From an uncultured Actinomycetes bacterium (lineage in GTDB: Bacteria > Actinomycetota > Actinomycetes > Nanopelagicales > Nanopelagicaceae): a DNA stretch of 64,000 nt. Positions 22,280 to 32,023 of this stretch are shown one piece after another; within the stretch, counting starts at the first letter, position 1, and every line of letters starts with the position of its first letter. The notes under the pieces are model-generated. The model saw nothing but the letters and a program-made list of their open reading frames with translations, was not told where the DNA came from and searched no databases. The stretch covers positions 124,001-188,000 of the forward strand of contig CAINLV010000029.1 in the NCBI GenBank assembly GCA_903850565.1, in the 5' to 3' direction. Position numbers and translations under genes: made by a program.

Positions 22280-23209
22280 TTGTACGGACTTGTAACAATA
22301 ATTGTTGGCGCGTTAGTGGCAGTTCAATCACGTATTAATGGACAACTAGCTACCACCGTTCATAATGGAATTGCCGGCGCTCTGCTTTCCAATCTTGCTG
22401 GTTGGGTTTTTCTCTGGGCTTTAGTTTTTGGATTGCGGGCCGAAAGATTGGCGCTCAAAAAAGTTATTAGCGCTTGGAAGAATAAGAAGATTAAGTGGTG
22501 GGAATTCACGGGAGGATTGGGGGGCGGTTTTTTCCTTTCCATGCAGAGCATCAACGTCCCGCAGATTGGCGTCGCAATTTTTACTATCGCGACTATCGGA
22601 GGCCAAACTGTGACCTCTTTGATTGTAGATAAAATTGGAATCTCCCCCAGCGGCAAGAAACATATAACGATTCCTAGAGTTGTTGGAGCGGTCACAACGC
22701 TAGTGGCGGTCACTATTGCGGTTAAGCCGGAATTAACCGGCACTACTTTTAAATTAGTGCCAATAGTCTTGACAGTCCTTGTCGGAGCGGTGGTTGCCTT
22801 TCAACAGGCTATTAATGGCCGTCTTAATGTCGTTACTGGCCGGCCATTGGCTACCAGCTGGATTAACTTTTCGATAGGTTCCATGGTTTTGACGACCGCG
22901 TTGGTTATTAATCTTCTCAATGGTGGCCATATCAGTAAGTTGCCTTCCAACCCATGGCTCTATCTAGGTGGACCTTTAGGGCTTTTCTATATTGCCATCT
23001 CTGCCTACGTCGTAAAGCACATGGGTGTACTCAATTTCATCCTATTTAGTGTTACCGGACAGTTGATTGGCGCGCTGCTTCTGGACTGGTTAGTCCCTGC
23101 CACAAAGAATCCAGTGAGTGGTTACCTGATTTTCGGAACCTTAATGACTCTCGCCTCGATCGCAGCTTCACAACTTTTTGAAAATAAAGTCACTAACCGC
23201 CAAAGGTAA
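22280..23209 (+). CDS. DMT-type transporter, YdcZ/DUF606 duplicated form
   Basis: This 309-residue membrane protein has about ten hydrophobic segments and consists of two related halves. Each half begins with a G-A-x-V-A-x-Q-x-x-I-N-G motif (VGALVAVQSRINGQL near residue 10 and VGAVVAFQQAINGRL near 170). This is the tandem DUF606 (YdcZ) family of small-molecule exporters; substrates are unknown. The start is a TTG with only a weak GAGA upstream, so a short uncertainty in the N-terminus remains. Its 3' end overlaps the convergent dipZ by 17 bp. Confidence 0.8.
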   Translation: MYGLVTIIVGALVAVQSRINGQLATTVHNGIAGALLSNLAGWVFLWALVFGLRAERLALKKVISAWKNKKIKWWEFTGGLGGGFFLSMQSINVPQIGVAIFTIATIGGQTVTSLIVDKIGISPSGKKHITIPRVVGAVTTLVAVTIAVKPELTGTTFKLVPIVLTVLVGAVVAFQQAINGRLNVVTGRPLATSWINFSIGSMVLTTALVINLLNGGHISKLPSNPWLYLGGPLGLFYIAISAYVVKHMGVLNFILFSVTGQLIGALLLDWLVPATKNPVSGYLIFGTLMTLASIAASQLFENKVTNRQR

Positions 23210-24875
23210 AGGTGTGAAGAGATACCCCTGGCGGCACCGTTATGGAAATCGTGTGTTCTCCAAAGATCGGAAATGTTGCTAGGTGATAAAGATTTGATCC
23301 AGAAATATTTAACTTTCCTTGCGGATCTTCGGAGGTAAAGTTACCGGATTCGCCAATCACTTTAACTGAAGCCTCATATGTTCTTGAATCAGCAACGCTA
23401 GCTACTAAATAAACATCCTTGGCATTTACCTTAAAGGTTAGCGTCGCCCCTACTCCTTGACTGGTGATTTTATCTGGCTCAACGTTCCAACTTCCACCGA
23501 TTGTCCAGAAATCAGAGAGCAGTGGTAATCGGGGCTGAAAATTATTGACTCCATCTTGCAACGCGCCATTGCCCATAAATCGGGACGCTCTCTCCGTTCC
23601 GAAGTAGGTTTCCGGTGTTTGATTAGGGTTATAGGCATCCACTTCCTTGGGACTTACTAATGTGGCGCTATCTCCCAACAAACTTTGTATCGCTTTTTCC
23701 GTCGCTAAGTATTCGCCCTCACCGTAATGAACGTTGACAACTTTCCCATCTCGATTGATCAAATAGTGGGCCGGCCAGTATTGATTTGCGAAGGCGTTCC
23801 AGGTCATTAAATTGTTATCTAGCGCGATGGGATAGGTCAATCCGTATTGCTTCGTCGCTTTTTCAACGTTGGTCAGCACTTTTTCGAAACTGAACTCAGG
23901 TGCGTGTATTCCAATTACTACAAAGCCTTTTGACTTATAAGTCTCGTACCATTTCTCAACATAAGGAAGCGTCCGAACGCAGTTAATGCAGGAGTAGGTC
24001 CAGAAATCGATCATTACAACCTTGCCGCGCAGAGCTTTTAGCGTAAGCGGAGAGCTGTTTATCCATGATTGCAATCCCGTTAATTCTGGTGCTAAGTACG
24101 GTGAAACATTGGTTGCACTTGAACTATTGGGGTTTTGACCGGGAGTCTTTACCTGCGCCAAAAGTGATTGGTCGATAGAACTCACGTCAAAAGGCGTGTG
24201 CGTTGTTACCCACAGCTCTGCTTTCTTGTCGTAACCGAAGCCGATGCCAATTCCGATCAGAATGAATAGCGCACCTAGGGCGCGACGAACCAGGCCATGT
24301 GAATCAATTGCCCAAGAGAACTTGTTAAGGAACTTCCGTCCTTTTATGGAGATCAATAGCAGAATGGTTACTAATCCCAAGCTATAAGCAAGAAGATAGA
24401 AGAGACCTGCAAATAAATTTTTTGGCAAGATCGTCGCCAAAATAAAGGCGTAGGTTGGGCTGCAACTGGAGAAAACTGGTCCTAGGGCTAAGCCGGTGGC
24501 AATTGCCCCGAAGCGACCTTTGCGAGTTACTCCGGCTTGAAGCAGTCGGTCTGAACGTGCTTGCCAACCCAACGCTGCCGATATTCGATCCCACGCAGAG
24601 GGAAAGAGGGTGCTGATTCCAAGAGCGATTACCAATCCGGCCGAAAAGTTAATCCACAGTTGTGGGGATACGCCAATAAAGATGGAGCTGACTTTCAATA
24701 AGTAAGTAAAAAGAATTAGCGATGTAGCAAGTGACCCGGCAATGAAGTACGGGCGAGTTCGATCTTTTTCATCTCCTGATATGGCGCCACCAATGATTAT
24801 TGGTAGTAGTGGTAAAACACAGGGCGCCAGGGCGGTTAGTGCACCAGCAATGAAGGCGAGAAAGAGAAGGATCAC
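23193..24875 (-). CDS. dipZ: DipZ: CcdA-type membrane electron carrier fused to thioredoxin and CBM-like domain
   Basis: This 560-residue protein has an N-terminal CcdA/DsbD-type membrane domain (about 1-220) with the redox cysteines in TALAPCVLPLLP and VFSSCSPTYAF. Next is a thioredoxin/TlpA-like domain (about 260-400) with the active site CINC in FWTYSCINCVRTLP. The C-terminal beta domain (about 430-560) is typical of DipZ. It carries reducing power across the membrane to extracellular thiols, in support of cytochrome c maturation or disulfide repair. The start is a GTG. A small secreted protein gene lies 28 nt upstream on the same strand. Confidence 0.9.
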   Translation of the reverse strand: MILLFLAFIAGALTALAPCVLPLLPIIIGGAISGDEKDRTRPYFIAGSLATSLILFTYLLKVSSIFIGVSPQLWINFSAGLVIALGISTLFPSAWDRISAALGWQARSDRLLQAGVTRKGRFGAIATGLALGPVFSSCSPTYAFILATILPKNLFAGLFYLLAYSLGLVTILLLISIKGRKFLNKFSWAIDSHGLVRRALGALFILIGIGIGFGYDKKAELWVTTHTPFDVSSIDQSLLAQVKTPGQNPNSSSATNVSPYLAPELTGLQSWINSSPLTLKALRGKVVMIDFWTYSCINCVRTLPYVEKWYETYKSKGFVVIGIHAPEFSFEKVLTNVEKATKQYGLTYPIALDNNLMTWNAFANQYWPAHYLINRDGKVVNVHYGEGEYLATEKAIQSLLGDSATLVSPKEVDAYNPNQTPETYFGTERASRFMGNGALQDGVNNFQPRLPLLSDFWTIGGSWNVEPDKITSQGVGATLTFKVNAKDVYLVASVADSRTYEASVKVIGESGNFTSEDPQGKLNISGSNLYHLATFPIFGEHTISITVPPGVSLHTFTFGG

Positions 24876-25223: not shown

Positions 25224-25811
25224 ATGCCAAAGATCTTCGCGCCTAACTTAGCTGCTCATCGAGAATTTCGTCGTCAGCAACTAATGAGCGCCGCCTTGGA
25301 ACTTGCAGTGGCGAATGGCGCCCAGGCGATAACGGTCGCCGCGGTTGCTCAAAAGGCAGGGCTTTCCCGTTCTTCGATTTATGAATATTTTTCAAGTTCT
25401 GCCGATTTAGTAGCAGACCTAGTCGTTGAAGAACTTGAGCACTACGCACTTCGACTCACCGATGCCATCAAAGACGCGGTAGATCCATTTGATAAATTGT
25501 CCTTATGGATTGCTGAAGGGTTGCGCTACGTCGCAGATGGTCGGCACATGTTAGTTAAATCTTTAAATACCGTGACGACTCCGGATTATCGAAAAGAAGA
25601 TATTGCAATTGGGCACCGAAAATTAATTGCCCCACTTCGACAAGCCATTGCAGCCACGGACATTAAAGATGTAGCAGCGGCATTGACTTACATATCAAGC
25701 ATCACCGATGCGGCAAGTATTCGAATTGAGTCTGGAAATGAACCAGAGCTCGAAATTCGGAATGCAACGGTATTTGCGATTGCCGGACTTCGAGCTCTAG
25801 GGCGTAACTAA
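25224..25811 (+). CDS. TetR-family transcriptional regulator
   Basis: This 195-residue protein has a TetR helix-turn-helix at about residues 15-62 (QQLMSAALELAVANG, VAQKAGLSRSSIYEYFSSSADLVADLV) and a helical ligand-binding domain. GGGAG lies upstream of the ATG. It is divergent from the dipZ pair and abuts the convergent gene for a secreted protein with no gap. Its targets may be the dipZ pair; the short divergent region (about 100 nt) is where an operator would be, but I see no clear palindrome. Confidence 0.85.
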   Translation: MPKIFAPNLAAHREFRRQQLMSAALELAVANGAQAITVAAVAQKAGLSRSSIYEYFSSSADLVADLVVEELEHYALRLTDAIKDAVDPFDKLSLWIAEGLRYVADGRHMLVKSLNTVTTPDYRKEDIAIGHRKLIAPLRQAIAATDIKDVAAALTYISSITDAASIRIESGNEPELEIRNATVFAIAGLRALGRN

Positions 25812-26783
25812 CTACTTTATTTTTGAAACCTTCAGTGCAATTTTGGAACTGTAGGAATTAAATAGTCCAACTCTTCCAGTAGCTTTTGCAATGAGCGTAC
25901 AAGTTCCAGTCTTAATTATTTTCACTTGATTTCCAACGATTGAGCAGATTTTCGCTGAGGTAGTTTTATATGAAATCTTCTCCCCGAAATTTGTCATTTG
26001 GGCTAATAGGATGGAATTTTTTATCGCAGCGGCTCCGAATGGAACTGGGGTTTGAATGCCAATTTTCAAGTTCACTGGGAAGTGCGAAGTTACCGTGGCG
26101 ACAGTTGCATTTCCTGGGGAAGTAATTGCCACATCGCATTGACCTGATCCCTTAAGGGCAGTCAACATATTTCCAACCATCGAGCAGTTTTCGCCATAAA
26201 CTTTAAAAGTTGGCGCAACTCCAGAGCCAGTAGTCGCATCAATGGAAACCGGGGTCTGATATGAAATGGTGAAGGGTGCGGCACTTGAGAGGGTTTTGCC
26301 GTTAACCGAAGCAGTAATTGTGTCGTTTGGGAGCGCTGCAACTATTGGGGTGGTAGTAGCGGCGGCAAAAGTAATAGGAATAAATTGATCTTCGGAGGTA
26401 TCGCTCTGCGCCGTGTGATCTAGTCGAACAAAAATGCCGCAGACCATGTGGTAGCAATCTGCGCCAGTGAAATAGGCAGTTACTTTAACTTTTACATCAC
26501 CTTTGGGAGATGCAGGCGCTTGTGGGTCATTGGAAACCCAAACTTGAGCGGTGCTAAAGATTGTTGGGCGGGCACCGGTTTCTGGTTGAACCGCTTCATA
26601 GAGGTATAGCCCGTGCGCCGTTGGGAAATTTCCAAATCCGAAATGTATATCGGCGCCATTGGGATCCAAATTTGTGTAAGGACCACCTTGGACAACCACA
26701 CTTGGGGCGGCGCTTGCTCCTGCAAACGAACTTGCGATTGTTAACCCCGCTGCCAACAGCGCAACGATTCGAACTTTGGACAT
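25812..26783 (-). CDS. Secreted protein with neocarzinostatin-like first domain, at heme locus
   Basis: This protein of about 323 residues has a clean signal peptide (MSKVRIVALLAAG to ASAAP). The first 130 mature residues share a pattern with the upstream gene product: CYHMVCGIFVRLDHT followed by DQFIPITF matches CRKIKCAIYVRADHT and NIPIQF. Two cysteines four residues apart before a beta-strand, and an FxxxIPIxF-type end, recall the immunoglobulin-like neocarzinostatin fold. The remainder has further beta-rich repeats with paired cysteines (ENCSMVGN, KICSIVGN). It lies 11 nt after its paralogue and beside hmuTUV, so heme or surface binding is possible. AAGGAA precedes the chosen ATG. Confidence 0.65.
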   Translation of the reverse strand: MSKVRIVALLAAGLTIASSFAGASAAPSVVVQGGPYTNLDPNGADIHFGFGNFPTAHGLYLYEAVQPETGARPTIFSTAQVWVSNDPQAPASPKGDVKVKVTAYFTGADCYHMVCGIFVRLDHTAQSDTSEDQFIPITFAAATTTPIVAALPNDTITASVNGKTLSSAAPFTISYQTPVSIDATTGSGVAPTFKVYGENCSMVGNMLTALKGSGQCDVAITSPGNATVATVTSHFPVNLKIGIQTPVPFGAAAIKNSILLAQMTNFGEKISYKTTSAKICSIVGNQVKIIKTGTCTLIAKATGRVGLFNSYSSKIALKVSKIK

Positions 26784-26794
26784 ATTTCCTTCTT

Positions 26795-27277
26795 TCATAT
26801 TTTCTTAAATTGAATTGGAATATTTATGTCGTAACTTCTATCGTCGCCGCGGGTGTGATCGGCGCGTACATATATGGCACATTTAATTTTGCGACAATCC
26901 AATTTTCCAATCATCGGTGAGACTTTGATAGTGATGGAAAACCTTCCGCCAGGCAGATACGGCTTGGCCAAACCAATTCCATAATCCGGCGGATTGGAAG
27001 AGATCCACATCGAAGATCCAGTTGCTCCGGTCTCATCCACGCCCCCGCCACAAGGGGTGGGCAATTTACCCTTTGCCACCAAAATGCATATCGCAACATA
27101 TACTCCGACTGTTTCGTCGAAGCGGGCACCGGAAATTACGATTTTTTCGCCATTCTTAATATTTGTAACCTTTGAAACAGTAAGACTCTCGCCGTGATTT
27201 CCAGGGCGAGTCGCAGCTGAAGCGGCACTCAGGGGTAAGGCAAGAACTATCAAAAGGAGCACAATCTTCCGAAGCAT
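26795..27277 (-). CDS. Secreted neocarzinostatin-like protein, divergent from hmuT
   Basis: This protein of about 160 residues has a signal peptide (MLRKIVLLLIVLALPLSAASAA). The mature part reads as one beta domain: LTVSKVTNIKNGEKIVISG, then VGVYVAICI, then LDCRKIKCAIYVRADHT and IPIQF. This is the strand and cysteine order of neocarzinostatin-type domains, found in actinobacterial surface proteins. Its partner downstream repeats the C-terminal half of the motif. It is divergent from hmuT across a 117-nt region holding a large palindrome, which suggests co-regulation with heme uptake. The role in heme capture is inference. The ATG at 27277 fits the signal peptide, though no ribosome site is seen. 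Confidence 0.65.
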   Translation of the reverse strand: MLRKIVLLLIVLALPLSAASAATRPGNHGESLTVSKVTNIKNGEKIVISGARFDETVGVYVAICILVAKGKLPTPCGGGVDETGATGSSMWISSNPPDYGIGLAKPYLPGGRFSITIKVSPMIGKLDCRKIKCAIYVRADHTRGDDRSYDINIPIQFKKI

Positions 27278-27317
27278 TGGGGAAAGGTAACCCAAACTCC
27301 TTAAAAGGTTCCTAGAC

Positions 27318-27363
27318 ACTGGGCAGATGGTGTGTCGGGGCTTTACCGACAAAATCTGCCAGT
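27318..27363. promoter_or_regulatory. Large nested palindrome in the hmuT divergent region
   Basis: GGCAGAT (27322-27328) pairs with ATCTGCC (27354-27360), extended outward by ACT/AGT after a one-base bulge. Inside it TGTCGG (27333-27338) pairs with CCGACA (27346-27351). It lies between the divergent secreted-protein gene and hmuT, so an operator for an iron or heme regulator is the simplest reading. Confidence 0.5.
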
Positions 27364-27394
27364 TAGTACGGAATAAGCCTGTGATAATCGGACA

Positions 27395-28291
27395 GTGAAA
27401 CCAATCATTGGCGCCTTAATAGGCGTGCTCGTTCTCAGTGGTTGTTCAACACAAAATATCGCAGTTCAAAATATCGGCGACAGCCAGGTCACCTTGCCAA
27501 TCGTAAATTCCGGCGAAACCCCCGCTTACTCACGGGTGGTGGCGTTGGCCAACGGGAGCGCCGAAATCGTAGCCGCATTGGGTTTCACCAAAATACTCGT
27601 GGGTCGAGATATCGCATCGACGATGCCCGAATTATCGAAAATCCCAATCGATACCGATGCCCATCAAGTTTCAGTAGAGCGCGTACTCTCACAGCACCCA
27701 GATCTCATCTTGATTGATTCCAATACAAGTCCAGCATCGGCAATCACTGTTTTGCGAAATTCTGGAATTAAAATTGTCACCGTTCCAAATTCTTGGACAT
27801 TAACGACGATGCCATCCAAAGAAGCAGCCGTTTCTGACGCATTGAAAGTTCCACAGGCGCAGAAAATGTTGCAAGCTCTTTTGAAACAAAATGAATACCC
27901 ATCGAAAAAAATCAAGGTCGCCTTCCTCTACTTGCGCGGAACCGCCTCTATTTATTTAATTGGCGGAAAGGGATCTGGAGCTGATTCGCTTCTGACCAAT
28001 ATTGGGTTGATAGATGCTGGAGCAGCAGTGTTACCCCACCCATTTAACGCTCTGACGGCGGAAGCGCTCATAAAGTTACAACCAGATGTTTTACTTCTGA
28101 TGACGAAAGGATTGGTCTCTGTGGGTGGACTTTCAGGATTGATCCAACTCCCTGGAATTGCCCAAACACCTGCTGGAAAAAATAAGCGAGTTATCACCGT
28201 TGACGATTCATTGTTGCTTTCTTTTGGTCCGCGCACCATCTCGTTATTGCCAAAACTCAGGGCTGCCATTCTTAAGGTTTCGGCACAATGA
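27395..28291 (+). CDS. hmuT: Heme ABC transporter substrate-binding lipoprotein HmuT
   Basis: This 298-residue protein has a lipoprotein signal (GVLVLSGC, Cys17 as the lipid site) and a helical-backbone type III binding domain. The C-terminal part LTAEALIKLQPDVLLLMTKGLVSVGG and LLLSFGPR is typical of HmuT of Corynebacterium-type heme importers. It binds heme at the cell surface. The start is GTG; GATAAT at 27383-27388, 6 nt before it, suggests a leaderless mRNA. The stop overlaps the start of hmuU (ATGA), so the three hmu genes are one operon. Confidence 0.9.
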   Translation: MKPIIGALIGVLVLSGCSTQNIAVQNIGDSQVTLPIVNSGETPAYSRVVALANGSAEIVAALGFTKILVGRDIASTMPELSKIPIDTDAHQVSVERVLSQHPDLILIDSNTSPASAITVLRNSGIKIVTVPNSWTLTTMPSKEAAVSDALKVPQAQKMLQALLKQNEYPSKKIKVAFLYLRGTASIYLIGGKGSGADSLLTNIGLIDAGAAVLPHPFNALTAEALIKLQPDVLLLMTKGLVSVGGLSGLIQLPGIAQTPAGKNKRVITVDDSLLLSFGPRTISLLPKLRAAILKVSAQ

Positions 28292-29271
28292 AACGAAGAT
28301 TCCTCTATTTATCTTTAGCGATTGCGCTCGTACTTCTATTTATTCTTTCGCTGCAAATAGGTTTGATTCACCTTCACCAATCCGTCTTTTCGCTCATTGG
28401 TAAAAACAATTCAGTCGATGCCACCACCGTATGGGATGTTCGATTTCCTCGTGCATTTGGAGCAGTAGTGATTGGCTGCGCGCTCGGAGTTGCTGGCGCG
28501 CTCTCCCAAGGGATTTTTAAGAATCCATTGGCCGAACCCACGCTGATTGGTCTATCCAGTGGCGCTACCTTCGGCACAATATTGGGAATTGCAACGGGCT
28601 TGGCTGGTTATGGATCATGGGTCAATTGCTTGATGGCAACCGCAGGGACGGCTATTGCCGCGACGGTCATTCAATTATTAGCGCCAAATAAGAACTTTGG
28701 CTTCCTCTTAACTGGAATTGCCTTCTCATCTATTTTAACTTCCGTGGCCGGCTTAATAATTTCCATTTCTAGAAGGCCAGGAATAGCATCCATAACTTTT
28801 TGGAATTTTGGATCGTTAAGTTTGGTGAACTTTTCCACGATTCGAACAATTCTTCCCTTTGTACTTGCTGGGATTATCTTGGCCTTCTTCCTTGCTCCTG
28901 GATTAAATATCTGGAGCCTGGGTGAAGATTCGGCTTTCTATATGGGGATGAATATAAATCGATTTCGATATCTCAACATTTTGGCGATCGCTTTACTAAT
29001 TGGCCCAGCCGTGAGCGCAGTTGGTTCCATTGCCTTCTTAGGTCTTCTGGTGCCACATGTCGTTCGACTAGTTGTCGGTCCGATGCATCGCCACCTGATT
29101 CTTCTCTCTGGATTATTGGGAGCAATCGTTCTGCTCATATCTGACCTCTTGGCTCGTGCCGCTTTTGCGCCACATGAAGTTCCGCTTGGATTGCTCACAT
29201 CGGCCCTAGGCGCCCCAGTATTAATTATTTTGCTCCGAGCACGTCGTGCGGCTTGGGTGGTAGAGCAATGA
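28288..29271 (+). CDS. hmuU: Heme ABC transporter permease HmuU (FecCD family)
   Basis: This 327-residue membrane protein belongs to the FecCD/BtuC family, with about nine to ten transmembrane segments. Signatures are WDVRFPRAFGAVVIGCALGVAGALSQG near residue 50 and AVGSIAFLGLLVPHVVRL near 250, the latter being the coupling helix that contacts the ATPase. It forms the heme channel as a homodimer. It overlaps hmuT by 4 bp and hmuV by 4 bp. Confidence 0.92.
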   Translation: MKRRFLYLSLAIALVLLFILSLQIGLIHLHQSVFSLIGKNNSVDATTVWDVRFPRAFGAVVIGCALGVAGALSQGIFKNPLAEPTLIGLSSGATFGTILGIATGLAGYGSWVNCLMATAGTAIAATVIQLLAPNKNFGFLLTGIAFSSILTSVAGLIISISRRPGIASITFWNFGSLSLVNFSTIRTILPFVLAGIILAFFLAPGLNIWSLGEDSAFYMGMNINRFRYLNILAIALLIGPAVSAVGSIAFLGLLVPHVVRLVVGPMHRHLILLSGLLGAIVLLISDLLARAAFAPHEVPLGLLTSALGAPVLIILLRARRAAWVVEQ

Positions 29272-29870
29272 TCGAAATCAAAAATATTAGGATCCGAAGA
29301 GGAACTGCGTTGGTCTTCGATAGTTATTCTGCGACAATTTTGAATAAGGGTGCCACCCTTTTGGCTGGTCCGAACGGTGCCGGCAAAACAACATTGGTAA
29401 GTGCCATTGCAGGAAGCACACCGCTAGAGGCGGGAGAGATTTTGATCAATGGTAATGATATTTCTGCTCTCAAACCTTCGCGATTTGCCCAAATGCGTTC
29501 GGTAGCCCCGCAGCGAAGATTCTTTACCCTTGCATTTAGTGTGGCGGAAATTATCGAACTTTCTCCCACTCATCTTCGAAGTAGCGACTGGTTAGAGGTC
29601 ATCGAAACGCTGGGATTGAATCAACTCAAGTCCAAGAAGGTCACAGAACTTTCGATCGGACAACAGCAGCGAGTCAGTTTAGGTTTGTCGTTAATTCAGG
29701 AAGCCGATTTCTATTTACTGGATGAACCATTTAGCGCCCAAGATTCCAATTTCCAAAAAGCGATTCTAGAAATAATTGATATTAGGGCAAAAGAAAAGGG
29801 AGTTCTGGTTGCCAGTCATAACACTGACGCCCTTCGCTCCCATTTCTCTCACGAGATAGCTATCAAATAG
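29268..29870 (+). CDS. hmuV: Heme ABC transporter ATPase HmuV, short form
   Basis: This 200-residue protein is an ABC ATPase with Walker A GPNGAGKTT, signature LSIGQQQR, Walker B FYLLDEPF and the H-loop region ASHN. It energises HmuTU. It is about 50 residues shorter than usual HmuV; the C-terminal accessory part is missing, but all catalytic motifs are present. The ATG overlaps the hmuU stop (ATGA). Its 3' end overlaps the convergent helicase gene by 8 bp. Confidence 0.85.
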   Translation: MIEIKNIRIRRGTALVFDSYSATILNKGATLLAGPNGAGKTTLVSAIAGSTPLEAGEILINGNDISALKPSRFAQMRSVAPQRRFFTLAFSVAEIIELSPTHLRSSDWLEVIETLGLNQLKSKKVTELSIGQQQRVSLGLSLIQEADFYLLDEPFSAQDSNFQKAILEIIDIRAKEKGVLVASHNTDALRSHFSHEIAIK

Positions 29871-31818
29871 CGCGCGCTGGTCGCTTTCCGGAAGTAACTT
29901 TCTTCACTCCACCCTTGCGATGCTCGGCTGGAAAAGGCTTGCCGCTCTTCTTCTTTGAACCACCGGCACGTTGACGGGTAGTTTTTTCAGAGAAGTCGAC
30001 GCTCTTACGATCACCTTTTGGGGCTGGTCGTTCGGAGCGAGCTGGCTTTTCAGTACGAGCTGGCTTGGACCAAGTTTCAGTACGAGCTGGCTTTTCGGTG
30101 CGGGCTGGCTTTTCGGTGCGGGCTGGCTTTTCGGTGCGGGCTGGCTTCTCCCATTTTTCGGCACGCATTGGCGCACCAGTTTTAGCTGGGCGGTATGGTC
30201 GCTCCGACTTTTCGCTACGGACTGGACGTTCGCTGCGAACCGGGCGCTCACTCTTGGCTGGGCGATCAAATTTATCCGCTGCGCGGTAGGGACGATCGCT
30301 TCTTTCGGCACGAACTGGACGATCGCTTCTTTCGGTACGAACTGGACGATCAAATTTATCGGCTGCGCGGTAAGGGCGGTCAGTTCGTTCAACGCGGGCT
30401 GGACGCTCACTTCTTTCGGCACGTACTGGAGCTTCAACTCGTTCAACTCGAGCCGGACGTTCAGTTCGCTCAGGGCGTTCGGTTCTTACTGGACGATCAG
30501 CTCTTGCTGGTCGATCTGAACGCTCGCTGCGATCTGGACGATCGTAACGCTCTGAACTTCTGCCACGTTCGCCACCGCGGCCACCGCGGAAACCACGGTC
30601 ACCACCGCGATCGCCACCACGACCACGAGAAGGCTTCTCTGCTTCAACAATAACTGGGATACCAGAAGGTTCTTGTGCGCCAGTGATTCGGATTAATTCT
30701 TCATCAGATGGACGAACATAACTTTCGGTCAATTTCACTCCGGCGCGGGTGGTTAAACCGTAGACGCCTTTCTTCTGCTTCGAAGTTGCCAATGTGACAA
30801 CCACTCCAGTTGCACCGGCACGAGCTGTTCGGCCAGCACGGTGTAAATAATCTTTGTGATCGGCTGGTGCATCAACGTGCACAACTAGGGAAACATCATC
30901 AACATGGATACCGCGCGCAGCAACATCGGTTGCTACAAGTGCAGAGGCTCGGCCATCTTTAAATGCGGCTAATACTCGAGTTCGTTGTCCTTGCGACTTT
31001 CCACCATGAAGGACCCCAACTGGCACGCCATTTTGCAGCATCTTGTCAGCTAATTTATCGGCGCCATGCTTTGTGCGAACGAAGAAAATGGTACGGCCTT
31101 CGCGAGCAGCAATTTGGGTAGAAATTAAATCTTTATGTGCTTGGTCCATAATCAAAATATGATGCAACATATCGGCGGAACGGGACTTCTCATTCTCAAG
31201 AGAGTGCGTTACCGGGTTCTTCAAGAATTTCTTCACCAAGGTATCAACATCGCGATCCAAAGTGGCGCTGAACAACAATCGTTGTCCGTTATCTTTTGTT
31301 AAACCAAGAATTTCTTTAACGACGGGCAGGAAACCCATATCAGCCATTTGATCGGCTTCGTCAATAACAGTGATGACAACATCATCAAGTTCGATGTGTC
31401 GTTTTTCTAGCAGGTCAATTAACCGGCCAGGGGTTGCAACAATAATCGGGACTCCACGCTTTAGCGCTTGAATCTGACCGGTATAGGAAAGACCACCTGC
31501 AACTACTTGGGAGTTCAAATTAACGCGGCGAGATAGTGGTCCAATAACATCGTTGATCTGCATCGCGAGTTCGCGGGTAGGAGCAAGGATTAAGCCGAGT
31601 GGACGATGAGGTTGAGCGGTTCGACCAGCCAAACGTGTCATCATGGCTAAGCCGAATGCGAGAGTTTTACCAGAACCAGTTTGACCTCGACCAAGAATGT
31701 CGCGACCTTCAATAGCATCGGGCAATGTGGCGGTTTGAATAGGAAATGGCGAAGAGATTCCTTCGAGGTCAAGAGCTTGGACCAGCGCAGGGTTAACACC
31801 TAAAGCATGAAAAGACAT
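29863..31818 (-). CDS. DEAD-box RNA helicase with long repetitive charged tail
   Basis: This protein of about 651 residues has a complete helicase core (about 1-370): Q motif, GQTGSGKT, VIDEADQM, FSATLD and HRAGRTARAG. From about residue 400 to the end it is low complexity: an RGG-rich start (GRGGDRGGDRGFRGG), then a long series of short (D/E)RPxR- and EKPART-type repeats, then a Lys-rich end. Such tails bind RNA and can drive phase separation in RhlE/CsdA-type helicases. I use the ATG at 31818 because the usual MSFHALGV start follows; a TTG at 31872 would overlap a -10-like box. The protein probably aids RNA folding or cold adaptation. Confidence 0.9.
   Translation of the reverse strand: MSFHALGVNPALVQALDLEGISSPFPIQTATLPDAIEGRDILGRGQTGSGKTLAFGLAMMTRLAGRTAQPHRPLGLILAPTRELAMQINDVIGPLSRRVNLNSQVVAGGLSYTGQIQALKRGVPIIVATPGRLIDLLEKRHIELDDVVITVIDEADQMADMGFLPVVKEILGLTKDNGQRLLFSATLDRDVDTLVKKFLKNPVTHSLENEKSRSADMLHHILIMDQAHKDLISTQIAAREGRTIFFVRTKHGADKLADKMLQNGVPVGVLHGGKSQGQRTRVLAAFKDGRASALVATDVAARGIHVDDVSLVVHVDAPADHKDYLHRAGRTARAGATGVVVTLATSKQKKGVYGLTTRAGVKLTESYVRPSDEELIRITGAQEPSGIPVIVEAEKPSRGRGGDRGGDRGFRGGRGGERGRSSERYDRPDRSERSDRPARADRPVRTERPERTERPARVERVEAPVRAERSERPARVERTDRPYRAADKFDRPVRTERSDRPVRAERSDRPYRAADKFDRPAKSERPVRSERPVRSEKSERPYRPAKTGAPMRAEKWEKPARTEKPARTEKPARTEKPARTETWSKPARTEKPARSERPAPKGDRKSVDFSEKTTRQRAGGSKKKSGKPFPAEHRKGGVKKVTSGKRPARAI
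30087..30140 (-). repeat. Three perfect 18-bp tandem repeats in the helicase tail
   Basis: The unit ctggcttttcggtgcggg occurs three times in a row (30087-30104, 30105-30122, 30123-30140) with a partial fourth copy. On the minus strand it encodes PARTEK. The exact DNA identity shows recent slippage or gene-conversion expansion. A larger, imperfect repeat (PYRAADKFDRP, twice) lies further upstream in the tail. Confidence 0.9.
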
Positions 31819-32023
31819 GGATCTACCAATCGAGACATCAAGCGTGTCTCGAGATGATCCGACTTCGATCAAATTATTAGCTAAGACTCGCGAGCGAACG
31901 CTGTGTGCGTTCTTATGGGGAGTGCTGCGGTTGCAACAACTGAGAAAGGGTAACGGAGAGGAGGGGGTTTTCCCAAATCGCTCTTGTTTTCACGCGGTAA
32001 ATAGGCTAAGCCGAGTGAAGAAA
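31819..32023 (-). other. Upstream region of the helicase gene
   Basis: This 205-nt stretch holds a TAATAAT box on the minus strand (31873-31879), which would give a leader of about 50 nt to the helicase. A GAACGC/GCGTTC inverted repeat with a 5-nt loop lies just upstream (31896-31912). I see no coding region or known riboswitch in it. Confidence 0.35.

Follow-up and report, generated by a model that had tools for sequence, protein, structure and literature searches.

The window, i.e. the whole 64,000-nucleotide stretch of DNA that was analyzed, contains the genes of a predicted heme-type ABC importer (HmuT, HmuU and HmuV) next to two genes on the opposite strand for secreted proteins, for which the names NcsS and NcsL were coined in this analysis; a gene for a TetR-family regulator comes after NcsL. 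The locus comprises the following features:

25224..25811, forward strand: TetR-family regulator, kept beside the neocarzinostatin-type (NCS) genes in the window's family; candidate local regulator
25812..26783, reverse strand: NcsL, larger secreted protein of 323 amino acids, signal peptide at about residues 1-25 (open reading frame)
25815..26333, reverse strand: two Cys-bearing Ig/Big_2-like domains predicted in NcsL, mature residues 126-298 (AF2 model and VIA)
26361..26702, reverse strand: predicted neocarzinostatin-fold domain of NcsL, mature residues 3-116 (VIA Z 11.1, 2.6 Å over 100 residues against 2cbq_B)
26795..27277, reverse strand: NcsS, secreted protein of 160 amino acids with predicted neocarzinostatin fold, signal peptide at about residues 1-21 (open reading frame, alignment of 20 relatives and AF2 model)
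26852..26896, reverse strand: NcsS motif C-x4-C-x-I-Y-V-R-A-D-H-T, residues 128-142
26981..26983, reverse strand: Tyr99 of NcsS in the loop WISSNPPxYGxGLAxP, candidate axial heme ligand
27278..27394, no strand: intergenic region shared by NcsS and HmuT, with an inverted-repeat site in relatives and the TGTGATAAT element
27395..28291, forward strand: HmuT, heme-type periplasmic-binding lipoprotein with invariant H90, Y179 and R181
28288..29271, forward strand: HmuU, FecCD-type permease (PF01032, E 1.9e-75)
29253..29870, forward strand: HmuV, ABC ATPase (best NCBIfam match the heme ABC ATPase PRK13548)

A first-pass annotation had placed both secreted proteins head-to-head with the heme importer. 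This arrangement applies to NcsS, which lies 117 bp away from the divergently transcribed HmuT, but NcsL lies behind NcsS on the same strand, so that only NcsS is strictly head-to-head with HmuT. Judged by its predicted ligand residues, the importer is of the heme type. HmuT is a member of the Peripla_BP_2 family with a His/Tyr/Arg heme site, the combination by which heme substrate-binding proteins were recognized here, and its best PDB matches were hemin-binding proteins including 5az3, which we take to be corynebacterial HmuT; the aligned residues include those mutated in 5b4z, 5b50 and 5b51. In corynebacterial HmuT, His141 and Tyr240 are reported to be the heme ligands, with Arg242 as their partner (PMC4926363). 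The corresponding residues H90, Y179 and R181 were invariant in all 30 HmuT proteins from the loci studied. In the region between NcsS and HmuT, the inverted repeat CCGACA-N13/14-TGTCGG was found with at most one mismatch in 14 of 23 sources from the window's family, as against 5 matches elsewhere in 343 kb (matches were sorted by eye into intergenic and other). The window itself has no copy within one mismatch in this region, and a degenerate copy, TAGACA-N14-TGTCGG, was recognized by eye at 27313-27338. An extended -10-like element, TGTGATAAT, lies at 27380-27388 and ends 6 bases before the HmuT start codon; like the repeat, it was also noted in the corresponding region among loci L026-L117. 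Its position together with the inverted repeat suggests a leaderless transcript under local control, and the TetR-family protein is the obvious candidate to bind the repeat.

Both secreted proteins carry the annotated motif C-x4-C-x-[IF]-[YF]-V-R-x-D-H-T, starting at residue 128 in NcsS (CRKIKCAIYVRADHT) and at residue 110 in NcsL (CYHMVCGIFVRLDHT), which are the only two matches in the six frames of the whole 64 kb, and the I-P-I-x-F strand reported for both was located at residues 153 and 135, respectively. Their signal peptides were likewise borne out, since direct reading revealed an N-terminal signal sequence without a lipobox Cys on each protein; an extracytoplasmic location is supported by these signal sequences as well as by the LPxTG-type tails on 11 of 26 NcsS relatives from outside the window's family. 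Alignments of the two families with hhalign identified NcsS and NcsL as homologous (98.9% probability over 112 columns). The four cysteines Cys64, Cys76, Cys128 and Cys133 are invariant in the NcsS family alignment (NcsS and 20 relatives), and the first Cys pair is missing in the window's NcsL. Fold prediction, a check named beforehand, assigned the proposed Ig-like neocarzinostatin fold to both proteins. With the AF2 model of NcsS (pLDDT 85, pTM 0.82, from a 21-row alignment), 12 of the first 14 Foldseek rows were named neocarzinostatin-family entries, among them macromomycin at E 2.1e-5, and the other two were chains of the binder-complex entry 4jw3. VIA gave Z 9.6-11.7 at ranks 1-10 (11.2-11.7 against neocarzinostatin and macromomycin), with the next, unrelated rows at Z 8.0. 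For full-length NcsL (pLDDT 90.7, pTM 0.55), Foldseek alone placed unrelated multi-Ig proteins on top, and it was VIA that told the domains apart: mature residues 3-116 matched neocarzinostatin (Z 11.1), and residues 126-298, modeled as two Ig/Big_2-like domains, matched Big_2 and S-layer Ig-like domains, in agreement with the extra Cys-bearing beta repeats that had been noted in the larger protein.

At the sequence level, the evidence for membership in the neocarzinostatin family is weak but consistent. The window's NcsS scored 12.5-13.1 bits with PF00960, below the Pfam gathering score of 25 bits, and NF040680 (NCBIfam) matched it at E 5.2e-5 and 23/86 bits, also below the curated cut-off; across the NcsS alignment, PF00960 touched 17 of 21 rows at E up to 1 (best 1.3e-5) and NF040680 touched 20 of 21. 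Because hhalign aligned just 40 columns of NcsS with five PF00960 proteins (86.7%), the family link rests on the fold and on partial sequence similarity. NcsS shares with this family (macromomycin, C-1027, neocarzinostatin) the predicted fold at Z of about 11, secretion and a similar spacing of its four invariant cysteines, which would form two pairs, and the known members carry a small molecule. However, identities in the structure alignments were only 15-19%, NcsS has its own loop, WISSNPPxYGxGLAxP, and an RxDH..DR..D motif, and it is linked to heme import, whereas the neocarzinostatin family is linked to enediyne synthesis. That NcsS and NcsL are themselves enediyne-type antibiotic chromoproteins, as the fold and the weak NF040680 match might suggest, is scarcely credible given scores under both curated cut-offs, the fixed partner hmuTUV, the small genome and the lack of an enediyne synthase among the seven proteins scanned in the window, and we rejected it on gene context and scores. 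The closest PDB sequence to NcsS (profile E 2.1e-8) was ThiX, a lipoprotein subunit of the bcc-aa3 supercomplex of C. glutamicum (7qhm), which has the Cys pairs, Tyr60, Trp91 and the DHT and PxxF positions in common with NcsS but is lipid-anchored and has neither the Tyr99 loop nor the conserved Arg residues. Its role is described as unclear and its soluble domain as unresolved in the structure (PMC8795186). By its matching Cys, Trp and DHT positions, this soluble domain (7qhm chain M) looks like an NCS-type domain.

Residue conservation was assessed in 71 unique strong and 51 weak homologues of NcsS (numbering of the NcsS precursor). Tyr60, Trp91, Cys64, Cys76 and Cys133 were invariant in all 71 strong homologues, in which Arg138, His141 and Arg147 each occurred 70 times, Cys128 69 times and Tyr99 68 times. 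In the weak homologues Tyr60, Trp91 and the cysteines were mostly kept, and His141 was also found in many of them; most of these residues recur in ThiX. To our knowledge, no heme role has been described for either the weak homologues or ThiX. Tyr99, in contrast, did not rank with the three most frequent residues of its position in the weak homologues and is missing from the ThiX alignment. Its retention in strong but not in weak homologues makes Tyr99 the best NcsS-specific candidate for a heme ligand, followed by His141, as far as conservation can suggest. NcsS was the best conserved of the six locus proteins compared; in L033, for example, it had 52% identity relative to 44% for HmuT, 36% for TetR, 31% for HmuU, 26% for NcsL and 24% for HmuV.

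The co-occurrence with hmu genes in other genomes that had been anticipated was found. HmuT adjoins NcsS in all 20 non-redundant first loci (not counting L040 and L042, which duplicate L025 and L026, or L039, where the contig ends and just NcsL and TetR are present). In a draw of 394 genomes from the class, NcsS was present in 71, HmuT in 125 and HtaA in 89; NcsS and HmuT occurred together in 65 genomes and at most 6 kb apart in 60 of these (Fisher p 5e-32 for co-occurrence, a value not corrected for relatedness). The five remaining genomes comprise a contig break (G072), a weak match (G161) and three members of family f19 (G074, G175, G398) with a diverged NcsS unlinked to HmuT. Six genomes had NcsS without a scored HmuT. 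In G147, where the contig start cuts the locus, heme oxygenase and HtaA lie beside NcsS, in G247 heme oxygenase does, and the NcsS matches in G125 and G242 are weak or paralogous; only G169 and G326 (the latter of f19) are real exceptions, having NcsS and no HmuT at E 1e-45. Since 60 of the 125 HmuT-positive genomes are devoid of NcsS, HmuTUV does not require NcsS. Among these 125 genomes, 33 have NcsS without HtaA, 32 have both, 47 have HtaA only and 13 have neither. A TetR-linked NCS paralogue without adjoining HmuT occurs in G125 and G177. A second TetR-NCS pair was seen at L114:7414-8449 and L115:6950-8001, with no adjoining hmu genes and, by reading, beside an NhaA-type-antiporter-like gene. 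At three loci from f19 genomes of 7.6-9.4 Mb (L079, L102, L107), NcsS-like proteins that have diverged are encoded as tandem pairs at a distance from hmuTUV.

Gene neighborhoods were annotated at 61 loci, 14 of which were set aside for lack of an HmuT above 150 bits or an NcsS above 100 bits. NcsS and HmuT are head-to-head in 43 of the 47 loci left and co-directional in four. Loci from outside the window's family had heme oxygenase nearby (12 of 26), HtaA nearby (12 of 26) and an LPxTG-type NcsS tail (11 of 26), and none of the three was found in the 21 family loci. A draw of 198 genomes outside the class yielded four positives, two of which have heme oxygenase, NcsS, HmuT, HmuU and HmuV in this order and in one direction. 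Generic cell-wall Ig-like proteins that stay beside hmuTUV by inheritance only could in principle produce such a picture, given that Ig-like domains are common on actinobacterial surface proteins and that kinship inflates co-occurrence counts. However, the linkage spans about ten families with changing orientation and partners and extends to the two genomes outside the class, and this repeated re-association of NcsS with hmuTUV renders mere inheritance highly improbable. Another tetrapyrrole or a siderophore as the ligand, or an importer that does not serve heme, might likewise be considered because B12 and siderophores are also transported by members of the FecCD and Peripla_BP_2 families; the His/Tyr/Arg heme site of all 30 HmuT proteins, the hemin-binding nature of the best structure matches and the heme oxygenase neighbors in 12 of the 47 loci leave little probability for this alternative. 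In summary, NcsS and NcsL almost certainly function in heme uptake.

The first-pass annotation regarded the two proteins as unrelated to HtaA and as a separate class of candidate heme receptors. The former was confirmed at the sequence and profile level (hhalign probability 0.1%); a Pfam scan found no match to the HtaA profile PF04213 or to the NEAT profile in NcsS or NcsL, and HtaA and NEAT structures are not among the fold-search matches listed, which in itself excludes nothing. However, the NCS proteins outside the window's family often occur beside HtaA or in one frame with it, so that they do more than merely take its place. At nine loci (L078, L085, L086, L087, L091, L097, L100, L104, L108), a single stop-to-stop frame contains both HtaA and NCS domains, and within such long frames PF00960 clears its cut-off. 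The hemophores with HtaA or CR domains (PF04213; HtaA, HtaB and ChtA of Corynebacterium) resemble NcsS in their place beside hmuTUV and as surface or secreted beta-sandwich proteins, and they occur in NcsS loci and open frames. The Tyr used by CR domains is located in helix alpha-1 (PMC12494546), whereas the NcsS model has no predicted helix of at least four residues. The same paper names two Gram-positive hemophore types, CR and NEAT, and describes the NEAT domains of Bacillota as secreted or wall-bound heme carriers that feed an ABC importer (PMC12494546), a feature shared with the role considered here for NcsS.

These domain arrangements could also mean that NcsS and NcsL are accessory surface adaptors that take part in heme uptake without binding heme, serving to dock heme proteins, to keep HtaA or HmuT in place in the wall or to stabilize the complex. 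NCS domains between HtaA domains in one frame, the LPxTG-type anchors on NcsS in 11 of the 26 non-family loci and the additional Ig-like spacer domains of NcsL would fit such a function, which nevertheless appears unlikely because the window's family has no HtaA to assist, its NcsS lacks an anchor and is short, and no protein of the locus is better conserved than NcsS, unlike what would be expected of a drifting spacer. All 89 HtaA-positive genomes of the class draw lie outside this family, and the window's genome had no HtaA match. In a draw of 101 genomes from the family, HmuT was detected in 40 and NcsS in 46, with strong NcsS matches in 42. These 42 include every HmuT-positive genome; the remaining two, G034 and G424, have an HmuT truncated by the end of a contig. 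Porphobilinogen deaminase (PF01379) was found in only six of the 101 genomes and not in that of the window (94.7% complete); G443 is the only HmuT-positive family genome that has it. Ferrochelatase was present in 2 of 17 family genomes and absent from 15, including that of the window, and heme oxygenase was found in none of the 17. The window's freshwater actinobacterium thus appears unable to make heme, and the missing heme-biosynthesis markers suggest that most carriers of HmuT and NcsS in the family import heme as a cofactor. Both porphobilinogen deaminase and this HmuT are missing from 56 of the 101 genomes, including single-contig genomes that are 99-100% complete (e.g. G003, G019, G030); these organisms may have another heme importer.

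Heme binding by NcsS and NcsL might also serve buffering or sensing, i.e. protection from heme toxicity or input to the TetR protein, instead of feeding HmuT. This notion agrees with the TetR gene that most family loci have next to their NCS genes and with the TetR-NCS pairs of L114 and L115, but secreted proteins cannot directly signal to a cytoplasmic TetR and the linkage to the importer is far wider across families than that to TetR, making such a role improbable. By their gene context, the two proteins are candidate heme receptors. We consider it probable that NcsS, with the help of NcsL, captures heme outside the cytoplasm by means of its neocarzinostatin fold and hands it to HmuT, and we lean towards direct capture and transfer by the NCS-fold protein as such. 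NcsS would be secreted, with NcsL assisting, and would bind heme, which could also have been released from heme proteins, in the cleft in which enediyne proteins hold their chromophore, possibly through Tyr99 and His141. The lipoprotein HmuT would then receive the heme, and HmuUV would import it. For the window's organism, without heme-biosynthesis markers or HtaA, heme capture by NcsS would be the only step recognized at the surface in supplying an essential cofactor, heme. The locus is a concrete candidate for this supply in at least those members that carry HmuTUV.

Since relatives lie beside heme importers in many other actinobacteria, these proteins are good candidates for an undescribed heme-capturing class. 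A surface heme protein feeding HmuTUV is known, but this fold was not found in that role in the literature searched, in which no paper joined neocarzinostatin with HmuT, heme uptake or the HtaA domain; the one paper that came up on the neocarzinostatin family together with surface proteins dealt with phage metagenomes. We give about even chances to the full proposition that the neocarzinostatin fold adds a third class to the Gram-positive hemophores with HtaA (CR) and NEAT domains, with NCS proteins as surface heme carriers that work by themselves in streamlined freshwater lineages auxotrophic for heme and alternate with HtaA domains in iron scavengers, and with the enediyne carriers and the supercomplex subunit ThiX in the same superfamily. 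If true, a fold of small-molecule carriers would gain an unexpected job.

Two other genes of the window were noted. The region 23193-24875, near the heme locus, encodes a protein that combines a DsbD/CcdA-like membrane domain with a thioredoxin/ResA domain and may serve in cytochrome c maturation, and 29863-31872 encodes, by reading, a DEAD-box helicase-like protein with a long, repetitive C-terminal tail rich in Arg, Glu and Pro.
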